DNA of 23,666 nucleotides, from positions 1 through 23,666 of the forward strand of contig MCFE01000962.1 of NCBI GenBank assembly GCA_002104905.1, written 5' to 3'. The stretch's first letter is position 1. Each line of letters opens with the position of its first letter. A program made the position numbers and the translations under genes. The stretch is from Basidiobolus meristosporus CBS 931.73. Taxonomy: Eukaryota > Basidiobolomycota > Basidiobolomycetes > Basidiobolales > Basidiobolaceae. Below the pieces are notes generated by a model. It ran no database searches, was not told the origin of the DNA, and was given only the letters and a program-made list of their open reading frames with translations. This document shows positions 789-23,666 of the stretch, piece by piece.

Positions 789-1138
789 TGTTGTAAAAAT
801 TTGTATTTTCCACCTAAATATTCACCTAACTTAGTCACTCAGATCATCACCTTCAAATCCTAGAGAATACTGACCAAATTCCTTGTCGGGATTTACTTAG
901 AATATTTTCACCAAAATACCAGGTACCCAGAACATGAAAATTTGATAAGTTGTCCAAACAGCCCCAAACTTTGCACACATGTTCTTGGGACCTTCCTTAA
1001 CCTATTCTACGTGTTTGTAATGCTAAGACCATGTAAAAGTATAAATACTACTTTTACATTCAATAAATCATTAAGTGAAAACCACATAATCTACTTGTTC
1101 TCCAAATCACTTCCAATATCTCCAAGACTCTTACAACA
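789..1138 (+). repeat. 5' LTR of the Ty1/copia element
   Basis: A 350-bp direct repeat of 5126-5475 with two substitutions, starting TG and ending CA. It carries a TATA box (1040-1047) and an AATAAA signal (1062-1067), so transcription and polyadenylation signals lie close together as expected for a short R region. Confidence 0.97.
1031..1067 (+). promoter_or_regulatory. LTR promoter with TATA box in a palindrome, and poly(A) signal
   Basis: TATAAATA at 1040-1047 lies at the centre of an 11-bp perfect inverted repeat (1031-1041 and 1049-1059, 7-nt loop). AATAAA follows at 1062-1067. The 3' LTR copy has the same arrangement (TATA at 5377-5384, AATAAA at 5399-5404). The diverged solo LTR at 6659-7015 keeps the same palindrome, TATA and AATAAA layout with altered arm bases. 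Confidence 0.7.
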
Positions 1139-1154
1139 GGTTATGAGCCCCAAG
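1139..1154 (+). other. Primer binding site, initiator tRNA-Met anticodon-arm type
   Basis: The 16 bases directly after the 5' LTR are complementary to an initiator tRNA-Met anticodon stem-loop, including the CAT anticodon (complement contains GGGCTCATAACC). This matches half-tRNA priming known for Drosophila copia and yeast Ty5, rather than the usual tRNA 3'-end (TGG...) site. The ATG that can open Gag-Pol (1143) lies inside this site. Confidence 0.85.
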
Positions 1155-4100
1155 CTGTCACTCTCTGCAATGTCTACTACTGCTATTACTGGAATTTTTC
1201 CCTCTGCTGAAAAGTTGGATGGATCTAACTACCAAGTGTGGAAGGTGAAGATGAAGATGCTGCTACAAGAAAGAGGCCTTTGGGATATTTTCATGGGAGA
1301 AGAATGCCCTCCTAAAAGCGTAGGAGAGGAAGCCTTAAAGTACCAGAAGAAAGAACAAAGTGCCTTTAACTGCATTTGCCTTAATGTCAAGGACAAATTG
1401 CTAATTCAATGCTCAAGAGCAAAAACGGCAAAGAATGCCTGGAAGGCATTAGAAGACACCTACCAGTCATGTTCAGCTGCCAAGAAAATGTATCTGAGAA
1501 GAAAACTCTTTACTACAAAGATGCTGCCAGGAGAAGAAATGAAAAATCTAATTAACAGAATTACCCTGCTGGTAGATGAGATGGAATCTGTGGGCGTACC
1601 AACTACTGATGAGGATGTGATAGTTACCATCCTGAATAGCCTGACAGACAAGTTTCAGGGCCTTGTATCAGCCCTAGAGTCCAGAACTGAAGATTTGACC
1701 TTAAATTACGTATATGGAAGGCTCCTGGATGAAGAATTAAGAAAATCAAGCGCTAATAAGAAGGAAGAAGAAAATGCTTTAATAAGCAATGATAACCAAC
1801 AAAGGAGGTACCCAAGACCCTACAAAGGCAACAGCAACCTATTTTGCAACTACTGCAAAAGGAAAGGACACACATCAGACCGGTGTTTCAAAAAGAGAGA
1901 TTATCAGCAAAAGAAGCCTGAATATGGAAATGCTGCAACAACTGAAGATAGACTATTCATATCTGCACTAAATATGACCACAAACAAGGATTCTCAGACG
2001 TGGTATATTGACTCTGGAGCTTCTCAACACTTTACACACCAAAAAGAACTTTTTACCCAATATCAAGAAATTCCAATTAAGAAGGTTTTCATGGGTGACA
2101 ATAGAACACTTGATGCAGTGGGAGAAGGAACTATCCAAGTAAACCTTAGAAGCAGTGAAGGGAGCCATACACTGACCTTGAAAGAAGTACTCTATGTACC
2201 AGAAATAGCCAAGAACCTACTCTCTGTAAGCAAGGCCACAGCAGAAGGACTCAGTTTCAGTTTTGACAATTCTGGATGCAGGATCACTGATCAAAATGGT
2301 GCCCATATTGCTTTGGGCATCAGAGATCAGAATCTATACAAGTTGACTTATATTCCATCATATCTGGAAGCCAATATAAGTAACTTAAATGAAGAAACAC
2401 CAATGCTTTGGCACAGGAGATTTGGACACATCAATTTTGATTATTTGTGTAAAATGATCAAAGATCAGCTAATTTCTGGAGTGAAAATTGATCCCCCAGC
2501 TAATTTGGAGCACTGTGAAGCCTGCATATATGGGAAACAAGCCAGACAACCATTCAAGAGCTCTGGGTTAATCAAAACTAAGAAAAAATTAGATCTAATT
2601 CACTCAGATCTGTGTGGACCTATGCAAAATTTATCCTTAGGCGGGATGAAGTATTTAATCACTTTTATTGATGATTATACAAGATACACATGGGTCTACT
2701 TCATGGAGAGAAAGGAAGAAGCTCTGTCTAAGTTCAGGGAGTTTAAAGCCATGGTGGAGAGAGAAACTGGTGAAAAAATCAAGAAAATACGCTCTGACAA
2801 TGGTGGAGAATATACCTCAAAACTCTTCATCCACTTCTGCAAAATTCATGGGATAAAGCAAGAGACTACTGTACCATACTCCCCACAGCAAAATGGAGTA
2901 GCAGAACAAGCTAACAGATCAATAATTGATATGGCAAGATCTATGATCCATGATCAAAAATTATCCTATGATTTTTGGGCGGAATCAGTTGCCACTGCTG
3001 TATATCTTAAAAATAGGAGTTATAACAGAATACTTCGTGATTCTACTCCATTTGAAGCATGGTATGGATACAGACCAAGTGCAGAACATCTAAGAATATT
3101 TGGGTGTACAGCATATGCCAAAAAACTGGCCGGAAATCAGTCAAAATTTGAGCCAAAAAGTGTAAAATGCATATTTTTGGGCTACTGCAATGAGAGTAAG
3201 GCATACAGACTCTACAATACCGAAGCAAAGAAGCTGATCAAGTCCAGGGATGTGTTGTTTGATGAAAATTCAAAATTTTCACAAAAAATGACATCAGATG
3301 ATGACGAAAATTTGATCTCAAGTCCACCAATTGTCAGGATTGAATCAGAGCAAAACAATGAAAATTTTTTCACTCCAGAGGACTCTACAACCGTGGTTCA
3401 GCCAGAATCAGTGCCCAGGAATATCCCAGAAGTGATCATTCCAGTATCAAATGCCCGGAGATCCAATCAGACAAGAAATAGCCCAAATTACTATATCAAT
3501 GAGGGTACAAACTTAGCCTATGCCTATTCAGTCCATGTTGATGAACCCCAGACTGTAAAAGAGGCCCTAAATAGCCCTCAGACAAAGTTTTGGAGATCTG
3601 CAATGACTGAGGAATATCAGGCACTGATGGAAAATCAAACTTGGGACTTAGTCAAATTACCAATCAACCGAAAATCAATTGGATGCAGATGGGTCTTCAA
3701 GACAAAATACAAGGCTGATGGTACAATTGAAAGATACAAAGCAAGACTTGTAGCCAAAGGATACTCTCAAACAAAAGGACTTAACTATACTGAGACCTTT
3801 GCACCGGTAGCCAAGTTTAATTCCATCAGATTAATATTGGCTATTGCAGCCAAATATAAGTTTTTTATTCATCAAATGGATGTAAAAACTGCATTTTTGA
3901 ATGGGGAACTTGATGAGGACATGTATATGGACCAGCCTGATGGGTTTGTTGACCAAGATAACCCCCATTTGGTCTGCAAGCTTAAAAAGTCACTATATGG
4001 TCTCAAACAATCACCAAGAGCCTGGAATTGCAAGATAGATTCTTATTTGGAATCTTTGAGTTTCAAAAGGAGTAATGCTGACTATAGTATATACTATAAG

Positions 4101-5114
4101 CCAGATAGAGCAAATCCAGTTCTATTAGCTCTATATGTGGATGATCTTATTATAGCCGCCAATAACCTAGAAACATTGGAAGAGACTAAATCCAGCCTAT
4201 CTAAGGAGTTCAAGATGTCCGATCTAGGAGAACTTAGTTACTACTTAGGGATTAAGTTCTCCATAGACAGAAGTACCCAGACTATTACCCTAAGCCAATC
4301 CAAGTATATTCAAGATATACTAAAGAAGTACAAAATGGAAGACTGTAAACCGGCAGCTACCCCAATGGAGACAAACCTTAACTTGGTCAAAACTCAACCA
4401 AATCAAGAGAGCTTGGTGCCATCTGAAAGCCCTGACTTTCCTTATCAATCTATGGTCGGCAGTCTGATGTATATCATGCTTGGAACACGTCCAGACATCT
4501 CATATTCAGTGGGAGTTGTCAGCCAACATAATCAGAATTATGGATCTGATCATATTGCAGCAGTTAAGCGGATTTTTAGATACCTAAAAGGAACTGCTGA
4601 TATCTGCTTAAGATACACTTATAATGATTCAGAACAGGATCTTGTGGGATACTCTGATGCTGGTTGGGGACGAAATTTAGAAGACAGAAGATCCACCACA
4701 GGATACACCTTTCTTTACTGTAAAGGAGCCATTTCATGGAATTCAAGAAAGCAACCAACCGTAGCACTTTCTACTACAGAGGCAGAGTATATGGCAGCCT
4801 GTGAAGCTACAAAAGAAGCAATGTGGTTAAGAAAGCTCTTTACAGATTTAGGCCTATGTCAAAAAACACCTATTACTTTATTTCAAGATAATCAAGGATG
4901 TATACAATTAGGTAGAAATCCAACTTTTCATGCTAGAACCAAGCACATAGATATTAGACATCATTTCATACGTGAAGCTATAGAGAATAACTTAGTTAGC
5001 TTAGTTTACTGTCCTACAGATGAAATGATTGCAGACATATTTACCAAACCATTAGCTAGAGACAAGTTTGAATATCTTAGGTCAAAATTAGGACTAGTCA
5101 GTACGAACATTTAG
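1143..5114 (+). CDS. Gag-Pol polyprotein of Ty1/copia retrotransposon
   Basis: A single uninterrupted frame of 1323 aa from the ATG at 1143; ATG 1170 is an alternative start. An in-frame ATG at 942 lies inside the LTR upstream of the TATA box, so it is not a plausible start. In order: UBN2-like Gag; CCHC zinc knuckle (C-X2-C-X4-H-X4-C, residues 235-248); aspartic protease DSGAS (290-294); integrase HHCC region starting near H424; integrase core D489, D552, E588 with exact D-X35-E spacing and the PQQNGVAE context; reverse transcriptase with YVDD (aspartates 1000-1001); RNase H with D1172 and E1213 and the copia-typical TEAEY and TKHIDIRHH motifs. The product would form particles, process itself, copy its RNA and integrate the cDNA. 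All inspected catalytic residues are present. Gag and Pol share one frame with no visible shift site, so how the Gag:Pol ratio is set is unclear. Confidence 0.97.
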   Translation: MSPKLSLSAMSTTAITGIFPSAEKLDGSNYQVWKVKMKMLLQERGLWDIFMGEECPPKSVGEEALKYQKKEQSAFNCICLNVKDKLLIQCSRAKTAKNAWKALEDTYQSCSAAKKMYLRRKLFTTKMLPGEEMKNLINRITLLVDEMESVGVPTTDEDVIVTILNSLTDKFQGLVSALESRTEDLTLNYVYGRLLDEELRKSSANKKEEENALISNDNQQRRYPRPYKGNSNLFCNYCKRKGHTSDRCFKKRDYQQKKPEYGNAATTEDRLFISALNMTTNKDSQTWYIDSGASQHFTHQKELFTQYQEIPIKKVFMGDNRTLDAVGEGTIQVNLRSSEGSHTLTLKEVLYVPEIAKNLLSVSKATAEGLSFSFDNSGCRITDQNGAHIALGIRDQNLYKLTYIPSYLEANISNLNEETPMLWHRRFGHINFDYLCKMIKDQLISGVKIDPPANLEHCEACIYGKQARQPFKSSGLIKTKKKLDLIHSDLCGPMQNLSLGGMKYLITFIDDYTRYTWVYFMERKEEALSKFREFKAMVERETGEKIKKIRSDNGGEYTSKLFIHFCKIHGIKQETTVPYSPQQNGVAEQANRSIIDMARSMIHDQKLSYDFWAESVATAVYLKNRSYNRILRDSTPFEAWYGYRPSAEHLRIFGCTAYAKKLAGNQSKFEPKSVKCIFLGYCNESKAYRLYNTEAKKLIKSRDVLFDENSKFSQKMTSDDDENLISSPPIVRIESEQNNENFFTPEDSTTVVQPESVPRNIPEVIIPVSNARRSNQTRNSPNYYINEGTNLAYAYSVHVDEPQTVKEALNSPQTKFWRSAMTEEYQALMENQTWDLVKLPINRKSIGCRWVFKTKYKADGTIERYKARLVAKGYSQTKGLNYTETFAPVAKFNSIRLILAIAAKYKFFIHQMDVKTAFLNGELDEDMYMDQPDGFVDQDNPHLVCKLKKSLYGLKQSPRAWNCKIDSYLESLSFKRSNADYSIYYKPDRANPVLLALYVDDLIIAANNLETLEETKSSLSKEFKMSDLGELSYYLGIKFSIDRSTQTITLSQSKYIQDILKKYKMEDCKPAATPMETNLNLVKTQPNQESLVPSESPDFPYQSMVGSLMYIMLGTRPDISYSVGVVSQHNQNYGSDHIAAVKRIFRYLKGTADICLRYTYNDSEQDLVGYSDAGWGRNLEDRRSTTGYTFLYCKGAISWNSRKQPTVALSTTEAEYMAACEATKEAMWLRKLFTDLGLCQKTPITLFQDNQGCIQLGRNPTFHARTKHIDIRHHFIREAIENNLVSLVYCPTDEMIADIFTKPLARDKFEYLRSKLGLVSTNI

Positions 5115-5125: not shown

Positions 5126-5475
5126 TGTTGTAAAAATTCGTATTTTCCACCTAAATATTCACCTAACTTAGTCACTCAGATCATCACCTTCAAATCCTAG
5201 AGAATACTGACCAAATTCCTTGTCGGGATTTACTTAGAATATTTTCACCAAAATACCAGGTACCCAGAACATGAAAATTTGATAAGTTGTCCAAACAGCC
5301 CCAAACTTTGCACACATGTTCTTGGGACCTTCCTTAACCTATTCTACGTGTTTGTAATGCCAAGACCATGTAAAAGTATAAATACTACTTTTACATTCAA
5401 TAAATCATTAAGTGAAAACCACATAATCTACTTGTTCTCCAAATCACTTCCAATATCTCCAAGACTCTTACAACA
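5126..5475 (+). repeat. 3' LTR of the Ty1/copia element
   Basis: A 350-bp copy of 789-1138 with two substitutions, with the same TG...CA ends, TATA palindrome and AATAAA. The 91-aa open frame starting at 5279 is only the LTR read through into flanking DNA and is not a gene. Confidence 0.97.
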
Positions 5476-12564: not shown

Positions 12565-12722
12565 TTCAAAAACCCCAGAAGGGGTGGGTAACAATTGCCA
12601 ACAGGTAGTGTCTTTTTCTCAATAACTCATATAAAGATTCCAAGTGCTACAATGATAGCTTTTTACAAGTAAATACAGAGAAGGGTCATTTTGTGAAAGC
12701 CTATAAGATATGTCACTAAGCT
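12565..12722 (+). repeat. Flanking direct repeat, right copy
   Basis: The counterpart of 7228-7390 in the same orientation. It directly precedes Rep-A copy 2, so the gene island is bounded on the right by two different repeats. Confidence 0.6.
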
Positions 12723-14543: not shown

Positions 14544-14937
14544 AGGGGGAGGAAAGTCACCAAGTGGTGAAATCTTTATTTACTTATGACAAGTATCTAA
14601 AGAAGCCAAGTTAATCTGAAGTTATTCCTAGAAAGCTAGGTCTGAGTGATATCTTCCTGGTAAGCCAGGTCTGAGAGTTGAGAAGCTGAGTGGCACTATA
14701 TTTCCTAGTTAGCTAGGTCTGAGAGAGGTTTCCTGGAAAGCCAGGCCTGAGAAGTGAGAATCTGAATATATCTGAGCTAAGTTATACTGGTTTGCAGTAG
14801 TTGAATTGTGGCTGGAATGGCCAGTAGACTGGGGGAACTGAGATGAATTTCTGGGCAATCACTGGCCATATTTACTAGGCAAATCTGGCCAATTAGCATT
14901 TCAAGGATTTCAGCCAATCAGAGCCTTTACTTTGCCC
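14544..14937 (-). mobile_element. SINE copy E1, truncated at its 5' end
   Basis: Matches the body and 3' tail of the full SINEs at 19837-20358, 20365-20888 and 20912-21432. It stops at TTTGCCC, where the others continue for roughly 110 bp into their tRNA-like head. The four 14-nt body hairpins are at 14627-14640, 14656-14669, 14704-14717 and 14732-14745. The 3' module is at 14558-14602. It has no Pol III promoter. TTAGGGGG follows at 14938. Confidence 0.85.
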
Positions 14938-14954
14938 TTAGGGGGAGGGAAAGT

Positions 14955-15010
14955 CACCAAGGTAGGTGAAATCTTTATTTGATTTCAGACAAGTCTAACT
15001 ACAAATAAAG
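14955..15010 (-). promoter_or_regulatory. Two-hairpin 3' module, ORF1-element version
   Basis: Hairpin A pairs CTTTATTTG (14973-14981) with CAAATAAAG (15002-15010), 9 perfect base pairs, with a nested AGAC/GTCT. Hairpin B is CACC/GGTG with a 6-nt loop (14955-14968). The LINE and SINE copies keep the same order and spacing with other bases. Recognition by the LINE reverse transcriptase is inferred. Confidence 0.7.
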
Positions 15011-15067
15011 AAGCCAGCTGGGAATAGAAAATTCCCAAAGTAAACACTAAGTTGAATATGAATAAAT

Positions 15068-15517
15068 CTAGGCTAAAGTTAAGGCAGTATCCCAGAGTAC
15101 ACTGGAGTTCAGGCTCATGGGGGAGTGAAGTAGATAAGCTTGAGAGATATAATGATCTTTGAGGAAGTGGGTAACAGCAGGTGAAGGGGAGTTTTTGATA
15201 AGTGAAGTGAATCTTGAGAGCATATATTCCTCTAATGAGATGGTCTTGTAAACTGGAGAATCAGGAAACTCTTTAAAGGCATGGTCAGTAGGCTCCCAGT
15301 AAAACTGGTCAGAGACATTTTGAGAGAATTGCTTAGCAATACTTTTGTCAAGTACTACCTCCAGAGTGTGATGGTTGATAAATCTCACGTTAACAATCTT
15401 GGATATATTGTAACCTTGTTGCTTGAGATACATCCTATGCTCAGATATAGGAATAAACTCCACATTGGTAAAGTAGCAGACAGCCCAGTCAGTAGCAGGA
15501 GGCAAATCAGAGGTGGC
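15068..15517 (-). CDS. C-terminal fragment of an ORF1-type (RRM-like) retroelement protein
   Basis: About 150 residues open from the truncation point to a TAG at 15068. The first 60 residues or so resemble the small RNA-binding fold seen in ORF1 proteins of fungal LINEs: an aromatic VCYFTNVEF strand, ISKIVNVRFI, then a strand LEVVLDKS. The remaining part is helical with no motif I recognise. The first codons in this frame lie in neighbouring LINE tail sequence (a TTG at 15538), so the native start is lost. In LINEs such proteins coat the RNA and act as chaperones. The assignment rests on pattern resemblance only. Confidence 0.45.
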   Translation of the reverse strand, partial: ATSDLPPATDWAVCYFTNVEFIPISEHRMYLKQQGYNISKIVNVRFINHHTLEVVLDKSIAKQFSQNVSDQFYWEPTDHAFKEFPDSPVYKTISLEEYMLSRFTSLIKNSPSPAVTHFLKDHYISQAYLLHSPMSLNSSVLWDTALTLA

Positions 15518-16265
15518 AGGGGGGGAGACAGTCACCAACAGGAGAGATCTTTATTTCAGTTGAAACAAAGAAGACAGCACTACTGTTGTAGCTTTGATAC
15601 AAGAGTGTGTAGTTGAGGGGAATTTGTAGGTAAGTTAATAACAAGTGATGATAGTTCTTCAGTGCTCAAGACACTGTTCAGTGGGAGGGGGGGTAGCAAG
15701 AGAGGTAAGAATGACTTGTGAACAACTTTAATGAGGGGAATATGACAAGGATTGATATTCATCATAAAGGGAGTGTGCTGCTGCAGATATTGCTGCCAAA
15801 GGTCTGTCAAGTACTTCAGGTAGGCCAGCTTGGGTTTTTCTGACTGCAGAATATAATGAGCAAACTCTTGACTTCAGGATCTCCAAGTATAGTTCTCCAG
15901 CAGGAGCCAGGTGTAGTGTGGTGTGTTCTCTTCCAGGCCTTATTCAGTGGGTTGTTGCAGTTGTGAAGTCTGAGGTATAATCTGGTTCTAAGGTAGAGAA
16001 GTCTGATCTTATAGGGTATAAACCCAAAAGCACCAAGAATAGCATGTCTGTAGGGGCATTCAGGCAGATGAGGCACCAAGGAGGTAATGCACCATACTGC
16101 AAACTTGTCAAGCTTAGTGCAGTCTCTAGAAGTAAGAGAGAGAAGTGGTAAGCCAAATTCCAGGACAGGGAAGACAAACTGCTTGAGTAGAAGGAGGCAG
16201 CTGGGAGCTGAAGTTGTAGGAGGAGTAACAGCCAGTAGCTTGTGGAGTGCCTGTCTTGCCAGGAT
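15518..16265 (-). mobile_element. LINE copy E3, 5'-truncated and degenerate
   Basis: Contains the last 750 bp or so of the LINE seen whole at 17285-19836, ending at CCAGGAT where TTAGGG (16266-16271) begins. Its tail hairpin B is damaged (CACC opposite GGAG at 15533-15544), whereas hairpin A (15549-15570) is intact. It is more diverged than the other LINE copies, consistent with an older insertion. Confidence 0.9.
15580..16265 (-). pseudogene. LINE ORF2 C-terminal fragment, frameshifted
   Basis: Encodes the C-terminal 220 residues or so of the LINE protein, downstream of the reverse transcriptase core. The frame breaks near 15868: the intact copies read CAAACTTCTTG and this one CAAACTCTTG, with further changes beside it. 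The upstream piece then ends early at 15816, and the original C-terminus lies in a separate frame (15580-15810). It is non-functional. Confidence 0.9.
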
Positions 16266-16271
16266 TTAGGG
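16266..16271 (+). repeat. Telomeric hexamer at the E3/E4 junction
   Basis: Exactly TTAGGG between the truncated 5' end of E3 and the G-rich terminus of E4. The same motif recurs at most other junctions of the array. Confidence 0.75.
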
Positions 16272-16495
16272 AGGGGGGGAGACAGTCACCAACAGGTGAA
16301 ATCTTTATTTCAGCTGAAACAAAGAAGCCAGCGCTACTGTTGTAGCTTTGATACAAGAGTGTGTAGCTGAGGGGAATTTGTAGGTAAGTTAATAAGAAGT
16401 GATGATAGTTCTTCAGTGCTCAAGACACTGTTCAGTGGGAAGGGGGGTAGCAAGAGAGGTAAGAATGACTTGTGAATAACATTAATGAGGGGAAT
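16272..16495 (-). mobile_element. LINE copy E4, extreme 3' fragment
   Basis: Only the last 220 bp or so of the LINE: the 3' module (16287-16323) and the final 54 codons or so (stop at 16334-16336). Homology stops after GGGGAAT at 16495, and unrelated sequence starting TGTTGTGTTGTA follows with no telomeric repeat at this end. Confidence 0.88.
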
Positions 16496-17184
16496 TGTTG
16501 TGTTGTATTATGATTAGTTTGGGGCTTGTTCTACAATGTAGAGACTAATCAACAATATACAACAACTTCCAGTATGCTAATACTGAAATAGTTTATTGGG
16601 AGTTTGATATACCAATAGAAGATATAACTTTCACTAATTTCCTCAATCTTGGGCTCAAAATATACTGTAGGCAGTGTTTATCACTTCTACAGCAGTGTTC
16701 TGACCTTCTGTCGACTAATGGGCTTATTTACTTTTATAGTAACTTTTCCTTATTTGGAGGTCACTTTCCTTTCTGAGAAAATATTTCCTAATATGGAAAT
16801 TTTGAACTCCCCTTTAACCTAAAGGGGTGTGTTGTAGAAGTCTCTAAAGGGGTCTTTAGACCTAAAGGGGTGTCTAAAGGGGTGTCTTTAGAGTAAAGGG
16901 GCTTCTTGTAGTGGTCTCTAAAGTGGACTTTACACTAAAGGGGTGCCTAAAGGGGCTTCTTTAGAGTAAAGGGGTTTCTTAAAGGGGTCTCTAAAGGGGT
17001 CTTTAGACTAAAGGGGTGTCTAAAGGGGTGTCTTTAGAGTAAAGGGGCTTCTTAGAGGGGACTTTTCCGACAGAAAAGTGGTAGTTTCTTGTAGAACTTA
17101 GATTGGATTCTTGTGGGCTTTGCAGTCTCTTTACTGATGTAGTACCGATCAAAGTCAGAATACTCAACAGTGCAAGTGATGCAG
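16496..17184. other. Unassigned insert within the array: hairpins and G-rich minisatellite
   Basis: No gene. It opens with TGTTG TGTTGT and a long imperfect hairpin: 16502-16508 with 16557-16563, and 16511-16518 with 16544-16551. It holds the TAAAGGGG minisatellite and then a perfect ACTTTTC/GAAAAGT hairpin (17061-17079). The TG-rich start and ACTCAACA near 17162-17169 recall an LTR, but the flanking five bases do not match, so I do not call one. TTAGGG at 17185-17190 ends the segment. Confidence 0.5.
16820..17057 (+). repeat. TAAAGGGG minisatellite
   Basis: Thirteen exact TAAAGGGG octamers plus one variant in about 240 bp, separated by short TCTTTAGA- or TGTC-type spacers. A higher-order unit repeats at a spacing of about 147 bp (16841 and 16988). 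GGGG runs recur every 10-25 nt on the same strand as TTAGGG, giving clear G-quadruplex potential. Confidence 0.88.
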
Positions 17185-17189
17185 TTAGG

Positions 17190-17272
17190 GGGGATGATCA
17201 TCACCAAAGGGTGAAATCTTTATTTAAATAATAAATAAAGAAGCCAAGTTTGAATATGAATATCTGAGATGC
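17190..17272 (-). mobile_element. Mini-element E5: little more than a 3' module
   Basis: An 83-bp unit between TTAGGG (17185-17190) and TTAGGGTTAGGG (17273-17284). It contains the GGCTTCTTT box, hairpin A and hairpin B, plus about 30 bp (ATTCATATTCAA) resembling the same region of E2. It is best read as a severely 5'-truncated E2-like copy or a deletion derivative. No coding capacity. Confidence 0.7.
17202..17240 (-). promoter_or_regulatory. Two-hairpin 3' module, mini-element version
   Basis: Hairpin A: CTTTATTTA (17218-17226) with TAAATAAAG (17232-17240), 9 perfect pairs and a 5-nt loop. Hairpin B: CACC/GGTG with loop AAAG (17202-17213). The outer end reads GATGATCAT where the LINE has GAGACAGT. 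Confidence 0.7.
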
Positions 17273-17284
17273 TTAGGGTTAGGG
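17273..17284 (+). repeat. Telomeric repeat at the E5/E6 junction, (TTAGGG)2
   Basis: Two exact TTAGGG units followed by extra G's that merge with the LINE terminus. The G-rich strand runs left to right, as at the other junctions. Confidence 0.85.
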
Positions 17285-17294
17285 GGGAGACAGT

Positions 17295-17332
17295 CACCAA
17301 CAGGTGAAATCTTTATTTCAGTTGAAACAAAG
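17295..17332 (-). promoter_or_regulatory. Two-hairpin 3' module, LINE version
   Basis: Hairpin A: 17311-17319 (CTTTATTTC) with 17324-17332 (GAAACAAAG), 9 pairs including one G-U wobble in the minus-strand RNA. Hairpin B: CACC/GGTG with loop AACA (17295-17306). The second LINE copy has it at 21449-21486, with the A-loop changed from AGTT to AGCT. Confidence 0.75.
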
Positions 17333-17341
17333 AAGCCAGCG

Positions 17342-19836
17342 CTACTGTTGTAGCTTTGATACAAGAGTGTGTAGCTGTGGGGAATTAGTAGGTAAGCTAA
17401 TAAGAAGTGATGATAGTACTTCTGTGCTCAAGACACTGTTCAGTGGGAAGGGGGGTAGCAAGAGAGGTAAGAATGACTTGTGAACAACATTAATGAGGGG
17501 AATGTGATAAGGATTGATATTCATCATAAAGGGAGTGTGCTGCTGCAGATATTGCTGCCAAAGGTCTGTCAAGTACTTCAGGTAGGCCAGCTTGGGGTTT
17601 TCTGACTGCAGAATAAATTCAGCAAACTTCTTGACTTCAGGATCTCCAAGTATAGCTCTCCAGCAGGAGCCAGGTGTTGTGTGGTGTGTTCTCTTCCAGG
17701 CCTTAATCAGTGGGTTGTTGCAGTTGTGAAGTCTGAGGTATAATCTGGTTCTAAGGTAGAGAAGTCTGATCTTATAGGGCATAAACCCAAAAGCACCAAG
17801 AATAGCATGTCTGTAGGGGCATTCAGGCAAATGAGGCACCAAGGAGGTAATGCACCATACTGCAAACTTGTCAAGCTTAGTGCAGTCTCTAGAAGTAAGA
17901 GAGAGAAGTGGTAAGCCAAATTCCAGGACAGGGAAGACAAACTGCTTGAGTAGAAGGAGGCAGCTGGGAGCTGAAGTTGTAGGAGGAGTAACAGCCAGTA
18001 GCTTGTGGAGTGCCTGTCTTGCCAGGATAATTCTCTTCTTCAGGTGTGCTCCAGAGTCTAGTCCAGTAGGAAGGAAAGGAAAGCCAAGATATGCAGCAGA
18101 AACCTGAGCAGGTAGAGTGGAGTTCTCCAAGTTGATGGGAGAGCCCAATGGTACTGTCTTTGCAATGGAAAGCTGGAGATTATTCTTCTGCAGATACTGG
18201 TGGATGGTCTGGGAGTCTTGTTGCACTTTGGAGGAGGATATTCTGATGTCATCAGCAAAGAGAGTAACCAGGCAGTCAGCTGAGAGTCTTGGGAAATCAT
18301 TCAGGAAGATGGCAAACAGTATAGGACCAAGCACAGAGCCTTGAACCACTCCATTAGGAACTGAGAACACAGCTGATTGCTCACTTGGGTGCAGAATTCT
18401 TGCTTGTGGATCCAGAAACAGAGACCTGACAAGGAGGGTGAGAGAGGTACTGGAGAAGCATTGCAACTTGGACCAAAGCAGATTTCTGTCAACTGAATCA
18501 AAGGCCTTAGTAATATCAAACAGAACTGAGGGATACTTGCACTGGAGAGTGTGATCTTGGCTAAGTATGACTGCATATTCCAAGGAGAGGCCAGGAACAA
18601 AGCCAAACTGTGCAGGATGAAACTTGAGGGAGTCAGAGTAGAGCTCCTGAGCAAGCAGAAGCTCAAACACCTTTCTGCAGGTGGGAAGCAGAGATATTGG
18701 CCTGTAGGAGCTAGGATCCAGGTGCTTTCCTTTGCCCTTGTACAGTGGCAGAACATTTGCAAAGGACCATTCCTCAGGAGTAGAAAGCTGGGCTGAGCAT
18801 TGCTGAAACAGTGGAAGCAGAAGTGCAGACATGGCCTTGGTACTAGTCTTCAGAAGCTCATAAGAGATTGTGTCCACACCTGGAGCAGTAGAGTTGGGAA
18901 GCCTCTTGAGCACATTATGGATTCTCCTTTGATCAAGTGCAAGTGGGATGGGCAGAGTCTTGAAGTCAGGATGAAAGCCAGGAGTTGAGTACTGCTTTGT
19001 AGAGAAGAAGATGTTAGCCAGCTGTTCTGTTGAAGGTAACTTCCTGGAAGAGGGCCTCATTGCCCTGTAGAGTCTTGATACTGTTCTTGTTATAGAGTTC
19101 GAAGATTGCAGAGGTAAGGAACTCATAATATGATCCCAGAGCTGAGTATGCAGAGTGTGGTGAATTGCCTTGGAGTGGTGTATTGCTGTCAGGAGGAGTT
19201 TCTCTGTTTTTGGGTTAGGGAAACTCAGGTAGCTTTGTTGCAGGGCTGAAACAATGGATTCCCATTTTCTTGAGGTAACAGCAGTAGTCTTGCATGGCAG
19301 TGAGAGGGAGGCAGACACCAGAATCAGATGCTTCACAAAGAGCCAGGCATAGTTGAGATCATCTGGCAGAGAAAGTAGCAAACTGGCAAGCTTCAAGTAG
19401 TTCCCAAAGTCTTTCTTCTGATTCTTGGTAGCTTTGTGGGTGAGCACAGTAAGTTTTGGCAGCTTCTTCTTCACAACTGGTTGCATAGAAAGGGACCAGG
19501 CTGGGTGGTCAGAGGCTCTCAAGGATCCTAGCTCAGCTCCGGAGAGTTGCTTGACTTCATTCACAAAGTAGAGGGCAGCAGCAGAAGGGCAGATCCAGTC
19601 AACATATCTTTTCTCAGATTGAGCACCTAGTGCTAGCAGATGGCTTTCTCTCAGGAAGTTCAGTAGGAATGTAGACCTTGGCTTCATTCTTGCAGTCAGA
19701 GTAGTCTTGTTCTCAGGATGGGGAATGTTGAGATCTCCAAGCAAGATAATAGGTGTTGATATAGATTGCTGGTATTTCTGGACTTTCTGGCATATAACTT
19801 GCACTTCCTGAAGGGCAAGACTTGGAGGCAGATAGC
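17342..19836 (-). CDS. LINE ORF2: APE endonuclease (partial) plus reverse transcriptase
   Basis: About 830 codons without interruption, ending CAACAGTAG. The native start is missing; the frame stays open into neighbouring SINE tail (TTG at 19855), which supplies the first six residues. Numbering from that TTG: the second half of an APE-type endonuclease with GDLN (40-43) and SDHPAW (115-120); reverse transcriptase with GVDTI (326-330), PLYKGKGKHLDPSSYRPISLL (370-390), motif A around D447 (FDITKAFD), motif B GVVQGSVLGP (502-511) and motif C FADD (533-536); then about 300 residues with conserved Cys/His but no named domain. The protein would nick target DNA and prime reverse transcription from the nick. 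Lacking the first half of the endonuclease, this copy is probably not autonomous. The clade looks jockey/I/Tad-like rather than the restriction-like-endonuclease type. Confidence 0.93.
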
Positions 19837-20358
19837 AGGGGAGGAAAGTCACCAAGTGGTGAAATCTTTATTTACTTATGACAAGTATCTAAAGAAGCCA
19901 AGTTAATCCGAAGTTATTCCTAGAAAGCTAGGTCTGAGAGATATCTTCCTGGTAAGCCAGGTCAGAGAGTTGAGAAGCTGAGTAGTACTATATTTCCTAG
20001 TTAGCTAGGTCTGAGAGTGGTTTCCTGGAAAGCCAGGCCTGAGAAGTGAGAACCTGAATATATCTGAGCTAAGTTATACTGGTTTGTGGTAGCTGAATTG
20101 TGGCCAGAATAGCCAGTAGACTGGGGGAACTGAGATGAATATCTGGGTGATCACTGGCCAAATTTACTAGGCAAATCTGGCCAATTAGCATTTCAAGGAT
20201 CTCAGCCAATCAGAGCCTTTACTTTGCCCAATGGTTGATCAAGCCATCTCCCAATGAGCACACATCAATTTATTAATCAAATTTTGCTGGATCCAGGATT
20301 TGAACCCACAACCATGGGTATGGAAGGGTTAGGGATAACCACAAGGCTAAGTGTTCTT
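19837..20358 (-). mobile_element. SINE copy E7, full length
   Basis: About 520 bp on the minus strand, with a tRNA-derived head, a body with four 14-nt hairpins (first at 19919-19932) and the shared 3' module (hairpin B at 19850-19861). The 5' end reads CCAAGAACACTTAGCC, preceded on that strand by CCCTAA. The 3' end abuts the truncated LINE E6 through a G run without a full TTAGGG. Confidence 0.9.
20296..20349 (-). promoter_or_regulatory. Internal Pol III promoter of SINE E7 (A and B boxes)
   Basis: B box GGTTCAAATCC (20296-20306) matches the tRNA consensus GGTTCRANNCC. An A-box-like TAGCCTTGTGG (20339-20349) lies upstream on the same strand. The equivalent boxes in E8 are at 20824-20834 and 20867-20877, and in E9 at 21368-21378 and 21411-21421. 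A CCCTAACCC sits between the boxes where a tRNA anticodon region would be. Confidence 0.8.
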
Positions 20359-20360
20359 GG

Positions 20361-20366
20361 TTAGGG
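20361..20366 (+). repeat. Telomeric hexamer at the E7/E8 junction
   Basis: TTAGGG directly follows the SINE 5' end (GTTCTTGG) and merges with the G-rich 3' terminus of the next SINE. Confidence 0.8.
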
Positions 20367-20888
20367 GGAGGAAAGTCACCAAGTGGTGAAATCTTTATTT
20401 ACTTATGACAAGTATCTAAAGAAGCCAAGTTAATCTGAAGTAATTCCTAGAAAGCTAGGTCTGAGAGATATCTTCCTGGTAAGCCAGGTCTGAGAGTTGA
20501 GAAGCTGAGTGGTACTATATTTCCTAGTTAGCTAGGTCTGAGAGTGGTTTCCTGGAAAGCCAGGCCTGAGAAGTGAGAATCTGAATATATCTGAGCTAAG
20601 TTATACTGGTTTGCGGTAGCTGAATTGTGGCCGGAATGGCCAGTAGACTGGGGGAACTGAGATGTAATTTCTGGGCGATCACTGGCCAAATTTACTAGGC
20701 AAATCTGGCCAATTAGCATTTCAAGGATTTCAGCCAATCAGAGCCTTTACTTTGCCCGATGGTTGATCAAGCCATCTCCCAATGAGCACACATCAATTTA
20801 TTAATCAAATTTTGCTGGATCCAGGATTTGAACCCACAACCATGCGTATGGAAGGGTTAGGGATAACCACAAGGCTAAGTGTTCTTGG
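20365..20888 (-). mobile_element. SINE copy E8, full length
   Basis: Collinear with E7 and E9, with few differences. Body hairpins at 20446-20459, 20475-20488, 20523-20536 and 20551-20564: each is CCTAG/CTAGG or CCTGG/CCAGG closing a 4-nt loop, and each is followed by a CTGAGA-type box. The 3' module begins at 20377. No protein is encoded. Confidence 0.9.
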
Positions 20889-20915
20889 TTAGGGTTAGGG
20901 TTAGGTAGGTAGGGG
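20889..20915 (+). repeat. Longest telomeric tract in the window
   Basis: TTAGGG, TTAGGG, then the variants TTAGG, TAGG and TAGGGG, sitting between the 5' end of E8 and the 3' end of E9. The shortened units are of the kind found where telomeric DNA has slipped or eroded at an insertion site. Confidence 0.88.
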
Positions 20916-21432
20916 AGGAAAGTCACCAAGTGGTGAAATCTTTATTTACTTATGACAAGTATCTAAAGAAGCCAAGTTAATCTGAAGTAATTCCTAGAAA
21001 GCTAGGTCTGAGAGATATCTTCCTGGTAAGCCAGGTCTGAGAGTTGAGAAGCTGAGTGGTACTATATTTCCTAGTTAGCTAGGTCTGAGAGAGGTTTCCT
21101 GGAAAGCCAGGCCTGAGAAGTGAGAATCTGAATATATCTGAGCTAAGTTATACTGGTTTGCGGTAGCTGGATTGTGGCTGGAAAGGCCAGTAGACTGGGG
21201 GAACTGAGATGAATTTCTGGGCAATCACTGGCCAAATTTACTAGGCAAATCTGGCCATTAGCATTTCAGGATTTCAGCCAATCAGAGCCTTTACTTTGCC
21301 CGATGGTTGATCAAGCCATCTCCCAATGAGCACACATCAATTTATTGATCAAATTTTGTTGGATCCAGGATTTGAACCCACAACCATGGTTATGGAAGGG
21401 TTAGGGATAACCACAAGGCTAAGTGTTCTTGG
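20912..21432 (-). mobile_element. SINE copy E9, full length
   Basis: Same layout as E8, with the module starting at 20924 and the Pol III boxes at 21368-21421. Single-base losses occur near 21255 and 21267 (GGCCATTAGC and TTTCAGG in place of GGCCAATTAGC and TTTCAAGG). TTAGGG (21433-21438) separates it from LINE E10. Confidence 0.9.
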
Positions 21433-21438
21433 TTAGGG
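21433..21438 (+). repeat. Telomeric hexamer at the E9/E10 junction
   Basis: TTAGGG directly after the SINE 5' end, leading into the LINE terminus GGGGAGACAGTC. Confidence 0.8.
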
Positions 21439-23666
21439 GGGAGACAGTCACCAACAGGTGAAATCTTTATTTCAGCTGAAACAAAGAAGCCAGCGCTACT
21501 GTTGTAGCTTTGATACAAGAGTGTGTAGCTGAGGGGAATTTGTAGGTAAGTTAATAAGAAGTGATGATAGTTCTTCAGTGCTCAAGACACTGTTCAGTGG
21601 GAAGGGGGGTAGCAAGAGAGGTAAGAATGACTTGTGAACAACATTAATGAGGGGAATGTGATAAGGATTGATATTCATCATAAAGGGAGTGTGCTGCTGC
21701 AGATATTGCTGCCAAAGGTCTGTCAAGTACTTCAGGTAGGCCAGCTTGGGTTTTTCTGACTGCAGAATAAATTCAGCAAACTTCTTGACTTCAGGATCTC
21801 CAAGTATAGTTCTCCAGCAGGAGTCAGGTGTAGTGTGGTGTGTTCTCTTCCAGGCCTTAATCAGTGGGTTGTTGCAGTTGTGAAGTCTGAGGTATAATCT
21901 GGTTCTAAGGTAGAGAAGTCTGATCTTATAGGGCATAAACCCAAAAGCACCAAGAATAGCATGTCTGTAGGGGCATTCAGGCAAATGAGGCACCAAGGAG
22001 GTAATGCACCATACTGCAAACTTGTCAAGCTTAGTGCAGTCTCTAGAAGTAAGAGAGAGAAGTGGTAAGCCAAATTCCAGGACAGGGAAGACAAACTGCT
22101 TGAGTAGAAGGAGGCAGCTGGGAGCTGAAGTTGTAGGAGGAGTAACAGCCAGTAGCTTGTGGAGTGCCTGTCTTGCCAGGATAATTCTCTTCTTCAGGTG
22201 TGCTCCAGAGTCTAGTCCAGTAGGAAGGAAAGGAAAGCCAAGATATGTAGCAGAAACCTGAGCAGGTAGAGTGGAGTTCTCCAAGTTGATGGGAGAGCCC
22301 AAAGGTACTGTCTTTGCAATGGAAAGCTGGAGATTATTCTTCTGCAGATACTGGTGGATGGTCTGGGAGTCTTGTTGCACATTGGAGGAGGATATTCTGA
22401 TGTCATCAGCAAAGAGAGTAACCAGGCAGTCAGCTGAGAGTCTTGGGAAATCATTCAGGAAGATGGCAAACAGTATAGGACCAAGCACAGAGCCTTGAAC
22501 CACTCCATTAGGAACTGAGAACACAGCTGATTGCTCACTTGGGTGCAGAATTCTTGCTTGTGGATCCAGAAACAGAGACCTGACAAGGAGGGTGAGAGAG
22601 GTACTGGAGAAGCATTGCAACTTGGACCAAAGCAGATTTCTGTCAACTGAATCAAAGGCCTTAGTAATATCAAACAGAACAGAGGGATACTTGCACTGGA
22701 GAGAGTGATCTTGGCTAAGTATGACTGCATATTCCAAGGAGAGGCCAGGAACAAAGCCAAACTGTGCAGGATGAAACTTGAGGGAGTCAGAGTAGAGCTC
22801 CTGAGCAAGCAGAAGCTCAAACACCTTTCTGCAGGTGGGCAGCAGAGATATTGGCCTGTAGGAGCTAGGATCCAGGTGCTTTCCTTTACCCTTGTACAGT
22901 GGCAGAACATTTGCAAAGGACCATTCCTCAGGAGTAGAAAGCTGGGCTGAGCATTGCTGAAACAGTGGAAGCAGAAGTGCAGACATGGCCTTGGTACTAG
23001 TCTTCAGAAGCTCATAGGAGATTGTGTCCACACCTGGAGCAGTAGAGTTGGGAAGCCTCTTGAGCACATTATGGATTCTCCTTTGATCAAGTGCAAGTGG
23101 GATGGGCAGAGTCTTGAAGTCAGGATGAAAGCCAGGAGTTGAGTACTGCTTTGTAGAGAAGAAGATGTTAGCCAGCTGTTCTGTTGAAGGTAACTTCCTG
23201 GAAGAGGGCCTCATTGCCCTGTAGAGTCTTGATACTGTTCTTGTTATAGAGTTAGAAGATTGCAGAGGCAAAGAACTCATAATATGATCCCAGAGCTGAG
23301 TATGCAGAGTGTGGTGAATTGTCTTGGAGTGGTGCTATTGCTGTCAGGAGGAGTTTCTCTGTTTTTGGGTTAGGGAAACTCAGGTAGCTTTGTTGCAGGG
23401 CTGAAACAATGGATTCCCATTTTCTTGAGGTAACAGCAGTAGTCTTGCATGGCAGTGAGAGGGAGGCAGACACCAGAATCAGATGCTTCACAAAGAGCCA
23501 GGCATAGTTGAGATCATCTGGCAGAGAAAGTAGCAAACTGGCAAGCTTCAAGTAGTTCCCAAAGTCTTTCTTCTGATTCTTGGTAGCTTTGTGGGTGAGC
23601 ACAGTAAGTTTTGGCAGCTTCTTCTTCACAACTGGTTGTATAGAAAGGGACCAGGCTGGGTGGTCA
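21439..23666 (-). mobile_element. LINE copy E10, continues beyond the window
   Basis: Nearly identical to E6 from the 3' terminus through the endonuclease SDHPAW motif, where the window ends. The 5' extent is therefore unknown, and this copy might be longer than E6. The 3' module is intact at 21449-21486. Confidence 0.95.
21496..23666 (-). pseudogene. LINE ORF2, second copy, with a one-base frameshift
   Basis: Encodes the same protein as E6 with all reverse transcriptase motifs (GVDTI, FDITKAFD, GVVQGSVLGP, FADD) intact in the downstream frame (from about 23330 to the stop at 21496). Near 23333 this copy reads GGTGCTATTG where E6 reads GGTGTATTG. The extra C breaks the frame between the endonuclease end and the reverse transcriptase. 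The upstream frame is open to the window edge and encodes DHPAW. The reverse transcriptase could be made only by internal initiation or frameshifting, so this copy is probably dead, or the base is a sequencing error. Confidence 0.9.

Follow-up and report, generated by a model that had tools for sequence, protein, structure and literature searches.

Several retroelements in one contig of the fungus Basidiobolus meristosporus CBS 931.73 end in the same two-hairpin module, which raises the question of what this common 3' end is and what it does. The contig (MCFE01000962.1, C1271 in our numbering) was analyzed over its whole length of 23666 bases, hereafter the window, and the genome (89 Mb in 1311 contigs) was searched for further copies. 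We found that the module is real and far from chance, and that the elements carrying it are telomeric in both location and polarity. It is probably the 3' recognition tail common to a guild of telomere-attached retroelements of the non-long-terminal-repeat (non-LTR) type. The telomeric location, which was absent from the first-pass annotation of positions 14955-17332, gives the tail its likely meaning.

Read on the minus strand, the module consists of GGCT, stem A (UCUUU.../...AAAGA), a 2-nucleotide UU spacer, stem B (UCACC/GGUGA) and a C-rich run. Stem B is 5 base pairs (bp) long and stem A 10 bp, the latter in four main lineages out of five; in the short interspersed element (SINE), stem A is broken by a 2 × 2 internal mismatch. 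RNA folding returned the same two hairpins in the modules of all five main families, with z-scores from −2.29 to −4.35. The arms of hairpin A and the loops of hairpin B (these on the plus strand) had been correctly given in the first-pass annotation, and the hairpins that it described are present, but each stem is 1 bp longer than written. Its statement that structure and not sequence is conserved was wrong, because the sequence is strongly conserved too: 40 of 79 columns are invariant in the five-family alignment.

Ten copies are present in the window, all on the minus strand, with covariance-model scores of 51.9 to 68.4 bits. They end long interspersed elements (LINEs), SINEs and elements whose only open reading frame is of the first LINE type (ORF1-only), arranged as follows.

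12570..12645, minus strand: degenerate older module-like 3' end of lineage F9, further from the chromosome end
14545..14936, minus strand: SINE copy 1, 5'-truncated (module 14555-14607)
14940..15519, minus strand: ORF1-A element (ORF1-only), 5'-truncated (module 14952-15015)
15520..16267, minus strand: LINE-A copy, 5'-truncated (module 15530-15575, hairpin B damaged)
16270..16496, minus strand: LINE-A copy, truncated (module 16284-16329)
17187..17272, minus strand: mini-element, a 5'-truncated ORF1-B element (module 17199-17245), its 5' end adjoining TTAGGGTTAGGG
17281..19836, minus strand: LINE-A copy whose 5' truncation lies within the endonuclease region (module 17292-17337)
19840..20360, minus strand: SINE copy 2, apparently full length (~520 bp), joined to a truncated LINE 5' end (module 19847-19899)
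20361..20366, plus strand: telomeric TTAGGG unit separating SINE copy 2 from copy 3, with a G-run that also belongs to the element tail
20367..20888, minus strand: SINE copy 3 (module 20374-20426)
20889..20910, plus strand: short telomere-like tract TTAGGGTTAGGGTTAGGTAGGT separating SINE copy 3 from copy 4
20911..21432, minus strand: SINE copy 4 (module 20921-20973)
21437..23666, minus strand: LINE-A copy cut off by the contig end (module 21446-21491; frames 21496-23280 and 23252-23629)

By eye, zero to about three telomere-like units separate successive elements. The ORF1-A copy has TTAGGGGG at its 3' junction and a frame (15068-15538) encoding the ORF1 C-terminal domain, while the LINE-A copy at 17281..19836 contains an ORF2 frame (17342-19855) with RVT_1; relatives of the F9 copy occur in two other loci, L049 and L026. 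About 690 bp of other sequence (16497-17188), with many CCCCTTTAG-type short repeats at ~16860-17060, also lie inside the array. Of the families that had been placed at 14955-17332, ORF1-A, LINE and mini-element lie inside or touch this interval, whereas the SINE copies are outside it, with modules starting at 14555, 19847, 20374 and 20921. The count of four element families was unsupported, since the mini-element is a fragment of the ORF1-B element, which codes for a second ORF1-like protein when longer.

A genome scan with sequence patterns found the module to be abundant. The pattern AAAGATTTCACCN{3,9}GGTGA had 145 + 1552 exact matches (1697 in total) against 0 + 0 for the reversed pattern, which places the module far from chance, and a pattern of the tail plus CCCCTAA had 114 + 1334 (1448) against 2 + 3 (5) in the control. 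With respect to specificity, 196 unrelated pattern matches in other collections had CTTCTTT upstream in 3 and CCCC downstream in 6, and the covariance model gave at most 23.7 bits in 40 of 198 control loci.

Position was scored for 74 of 141 listed matches, those on contigs of known size (32/41 from one listing and 42/100 from another); these are a non-random sample in which several matches share one contig, and 42 of them fall on contigs of at least 100 kb. On these larger contigs, 41 of the 42 are terminal, at 25 kb or less from an end (a zone that makes up 26% of the sequence in 26 such contigs), and the 3' end faces inward in all 42. Considering all contig sizes, 73/74 are terminal by this measure and 63/74 point inward from the nearer end; in short contigs the nearer end is ambiguous. 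Three contigs of 195-313 kb (C979, C846 and C424) have mirrored element matches at both ends, and for this reason may be near-complete small chromosomes. The telomeric motif (TTAGGG)4 had 7428 forward and 81 reverse matches (control 0 + 13), which mirrors the strand bias of the elements. Inspection of 11 right contig ends showed telomere repeats at the terminus of five: in C21, C22 and C1281 an element runs directly into TTAGGG, the order being element, telomere and end, and element and telomere are separated by other or degenerate sequence in C1 and C23. The remaining six are without telomere repeats, and for two of them (C284 and C217) the array has its inner side at the right end. Telomerase repeats have not been replaced by retroelements in this genome, in which a TERT RNA-binding domain and terminal (TTAGGG)n are present.

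The junctions lead in the same direction. In 71 of 100 distinct junctions TAA directly follows the C-run, whose length ranges from 1 to 10 (36/50 for LINE-A, 11/19 for SINE, 14/16 for ORF1-A, 7/9 for LINE-B and 3/6 for ORF1-B). On the opposite strand the sequence next to the element is TTA GGG(G)n, which is what pairing between the 3' end of a TTAGGG telomere and a slippery C-run in the element RNA should produce. Such frequent adjacency of telomere-like sequence would also suit a conserved feature that acts as DNA, namely a binding or nicking site for telomeric proteins beside TTAGGG; the variable loops and paired stems indicate a constraint internal to a single strand, and we regard this explanation as very improbable. 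A different 3' end (AATCAATAAAAGA[AG]TTTA..), lacking the two-hairpin module and joined to CCCCTAACCC or a near variant, was seen in three loci (L003:976, L025:953 and L024:2455) and perhaps belongs to another telomere-attached element.

The members of the guild are three LINEs (A, B and C), two ORF1-only families (A and B) and one SINE-like element; F8, SINE2 and F9 are older lineages with single or few degraded copies. LINE-A has an ORF1 frame (414 aa in L273) with a coiled-coil-like part and the C-terminal domain, while a zinc-finger-like stretch lies further upstream in a frame of its own (by eye). Its ORF2 frame is open over 922 codons in 71 of the 150 matches listed, two of these 71 having a stop flagged inside the match. 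LINE-B, which is related to P0005 and also has ORF1 upstream, shows an open frame of 949 codons in 16 of the 150 matches listed, many of the others being LINE-A. LINE-C was recognized by a third ORF2 C-terminus with its own module (L020), and a second copy of its module is on C149. The existence of this third LINE with the same tail favors a common recognition tail. The single shared reverse transcriptase (RT) that had been proposed is unsupported, because the genome holds at least three module-bearing LINE lineages, and the SINE and ORF1-A tails (CTTTCC..) look by eye more like that of LINE-B than that of LINE-A, the LINE of the window. The ORF1-A element is about 1 kb long, and 44 of the ~150 matches listed have its single frame open over 271 codons, counted from stop to stop; the ORF1-B frames have 285 and 336 codons. 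In the SINE-like element (~520 bp) no coding frame was noted; it has a B-box-like GGTTCAAATCC by eye, and no tRNA match was found by ARAGORN or, at E ≤ 10, in Rfam. LINE and SINE share a specific 3' tail, as in LINE/SINE pairs of the stringent type.

The RT domain of the LINEs matched PF00078 (RVT_1; E 5.4e-25) and L1 ORF2 chains (best 3.8e-13). Their N-terminal APE-like domain is recognizable though under Pfam cut-offs, with GD[LI]N, D and SDH kept, and the E of motif II is replaced by D in all four clade members covering the motif, in contrast to E in all eight outside LINEs aligned; this is a lead for altered nicking, and no proof of it. For a C-terminal restriction-like endonuclease, Pfam gave only the RVT_1 and Exo_endo_phos families, and no CCHC/RHD pattern was seen by eye in the LINE-A C-terminus. 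Among the matches listed, ORF2 relatives from environmental assemblies had 80, 64, 63, 60 and 47% identity, followed by a drop to ~25-35%. The earlier description of the element bodies as unrelated is unsupported, given that a C-terminal ORF1 domain is common to LINEs and ORF1-only elements. In this domain ORF1-A is 44-49% identical to ORF1-B, 48% to a partial B. ranarum protein, 35% to LINE-A and 25% to LINE-B, ORF1-B is 50% identical to the B. ranarum protein, and LINE-A and LINE-B share 48%. From these pairwise identities, the ORF1-only elements look like a clade of their own with a B. ranarum member rather than recent LINE deletions.

Evidence for selection on the tail comes from divergence and from covariation, of which the former is the stronger argument. 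The module is near-identical in LINE-A and LINE-B, although their ORF2 differ at a proportion of 0.36 of nonsynonymous (pN) and 0.76 of synonymous (pS) sites, that is, with synonymous sites near saturation; between ORF1-A and ORF1-B, pN was 0.35 and pS 0.78. One pair of ORF1-B copies (nonsynonymous rate dN 0.036, synonymous rate dS 0.169) gave a signal of purifying selection. The covariation and arm-swap tests were done with loops trimmed and lineages treated as independent. In the seven-lineage alignment, 96.2% of cells were paired and a single pair out of 15 varied on both sides (G-C, A-U, C-G and U-A); the covariation score was 0.178 against 0.101 (standard deviation 0.017) in shuffles, none of 500 being as high. 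Nine lineages gave 94.1% paired cells and two pairs out of 15 with changes on both sides; five standard pair types occur at the innermost pair of stem A, stem B has one-sided wobble changes only, and the score was 0.211 against 0.103 (0.022), again with 0/500 shuffles. Arm-swap permutations were as good as the real pairing in 12/5040 cases for seven lineages, 2/120 for the five kept and 2/24 for the four first described. In the older SINE-like module SINE2 (L012:3001-3053, plus strand), a compensated A-U to U-A change in stem A and wobble changes in stem B were observed. The covariation anticipated in the first-pass annotation is therefore present but thin, given those two pairs of 15: among the arms of LINE, ORF1 and mini-element a single pair covaries fully (C-G/G-C/A-U), and the inner helix of the SINE differs. 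Its proposal of selection on an RNA recognition tail is supported by a tail kept at near-saturated synonymous divergence, by like folds and by arms that pair within each lineage.

Several points must be weighed against a recognition tail used at free telomeric ends. TAA is absent in 29 of the 100 junctions. Most stem pairs are nearly invariant and so little informative, as hardly any variation exists in them. The number of pairs changing on both sides is unexceptional, having been reached in 333/500 shuffles for seven lineages and 71/500 for nine, and the same is true of further pair types (213/500 and 73/500). Nicking inside telomere tracts instead of free-end use is possible, since long open frames still include the endonuclease region. 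The AATAAAG inside stem A, which does not vary in the first alignment of seven lineages, might instead function in 3'-end formation: the module would then be a signal for RNA 3'-end formation or stability, with AAUAAA in stem A and hairpin B stabilizing the end, and the RT would recognize only the C-run or the telomere-like end, in keeping with the 71 TAA junctions. We think this unlikely, considering that no poly(A) occurs in the 3' junctions listed, that two older single copies without AATAAA keep both hairpins (SINE2 in L012 and, with mismatches, F9 in L026) and that the covariation in stem A favors pairing over a linear signal. Finally, the module could have spread by recombination or template switching within arrays, its 3' ends being exchanged there and propagated by telomere recombination, with no present function of its own. 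The arrays are indeed nested and repetitive, and those of the MoTeR elements expand through break-induced and D-loop events (PMC7367193). By eye, however, families differ in the bases immediately 5' of the module, and the arm sequences are lineage-specific and pair within the lineage, which leaves this alternative improbable, somewhat more so than a 3'-end signal.

For the recognition tail that we prefer, the following mechanism may be proposed. The RT encoded by the APE-type LINEs A, B and C would bind both hairpins, and the C-run 3' of them would anneal to the G-rich telomeric 3' terminus (TTAGGG) and prime reverse transcription, so that each added copy would have its 3' end toward the centromere and its 5' body toward the chromosome end. 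ORF1-only and SINE-like elements with the same tail would be copied in trans. Truncated ends would be healed with TTAGGG, presumably by telomerase, and would receive further elements, giving rise to nested arrays.

Other features were noted outside this system. A long open copia-type frame of 1390 aa (942-5114), with gag, integrase and RVT_2 domains and flanking repeats at ~794-1140 and 5130-5475 that are near-identical by eye, may be a young LTR element. A dispersed repeat outside the module families is perhaps represented by three stretches near AGTGTAATAAAACTCTTGAATG that look similar by eye (~5480, 12750 and 13960). Elsewhere in the genome, five HSP70 frames of 651-664 aa are clustered in ~14 kb of contig C416 (1828-15285), and one mitochondrial-type HSP70 frame shows 100% identity to B. 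meristosporus CBS 931.73 and 93% to B. ranarum.

As regards known systems, HAL1 (half-L1) is an ORF1-only LINE relative, and unlike it the Basidiobolus ORF1-only elements are telomeric and in an ORF1 lineage with a B. ranarum member. Drosophila is a telomerase exception, and there, as in Basidiobolus, several elements are added at chromosome ends (HeT-A, TART and TAHRE); ORF1-only elements coexist with RT-coding elements at the chromosome ends of Basidiobolus, and HeT-A is their nearest analogue. Unlike Drosophila with HeT-A/TART, Basidiobolus keeps a TERT domain and TTAGGG arrays. HeT-A, without an RT of its own, provides a telomere-targeting Gag (PMC5537684), and SINEs do not occur in the text of that review. 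MoTeR of Pyricularia oryzae has its 5' end nearest the chromosome end, telomere-capped truncations, interstitial telomere tracts and a partner, MoTeR2, sharing 3' sequence with MoTeR1 (PMC7367193); FoTeR junctions in Fusarium oxysporum hold telomeric repeats, and the endonuclease of both is C-terminal and restriction-like (PMC12857005). Like these, the Basidiobolus elements are non-LTR elements in fungal TTAGGG telomeres inserted with the 5' end distal, but they differ in the N-terminal APE-like domain, the three LINE lineages, the ORF1-only and SINE-like elements and the paired double hairpin. SART1/TRAS1 of Bombyx mori is a further similar system, in which SART1 is a two-ORF, telomeric-repeat-specific LINE with an APE-like endonuclease, whose proteins recognize the 3' untranslated region in trans (PMC7265360); it terminates in poly(A), whereas the Basidiobolus elements terminate in a C-run. 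In ZfL2 and UnaL2/UnaSINE, LINE-SINE pairs with a common 3' tail, the LINE protein recognizes a 3' stem-loop, hairpin binding having been shown for ZfL2 (PMC4176376); unlike these, the Basidiobolus tail has two hairpins and is telomeric. None of the papers listed in a literature search had a title on Basidiobolus telomeric elements.

More tentatively, a division of labor like that of HeT-A/TART might have evolved independently in this early-diverging fungus with a telomerase gene. The ORF1-only elements would give a telomere-homing ORF1 protein, the three LINEs would give the RT and the SINE-like element would ride along, and the C-run of the two-hairpin tail would act on the TTAGGG end as the template of telomerase RNA does, in which case a normal endonuclease might not be needed (catalytic E to D); we hold this to be possible, though rather doubtful. 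If the proposed reading is true, an APE-type, multi-partner guild of telomere retroelements would be added for fungi to the restriction-like-endonuclease type of MoTeR and FoTeR, and would provide an independent case of ORF1-only beside RT-coding elements at chromosome ends with the telomerase gene still present. The origin of HeT-A/TART-like systems would thereby become directly testable, and the compact module of 46 positions would offer a clear substrate for LINE RT recognition assays.

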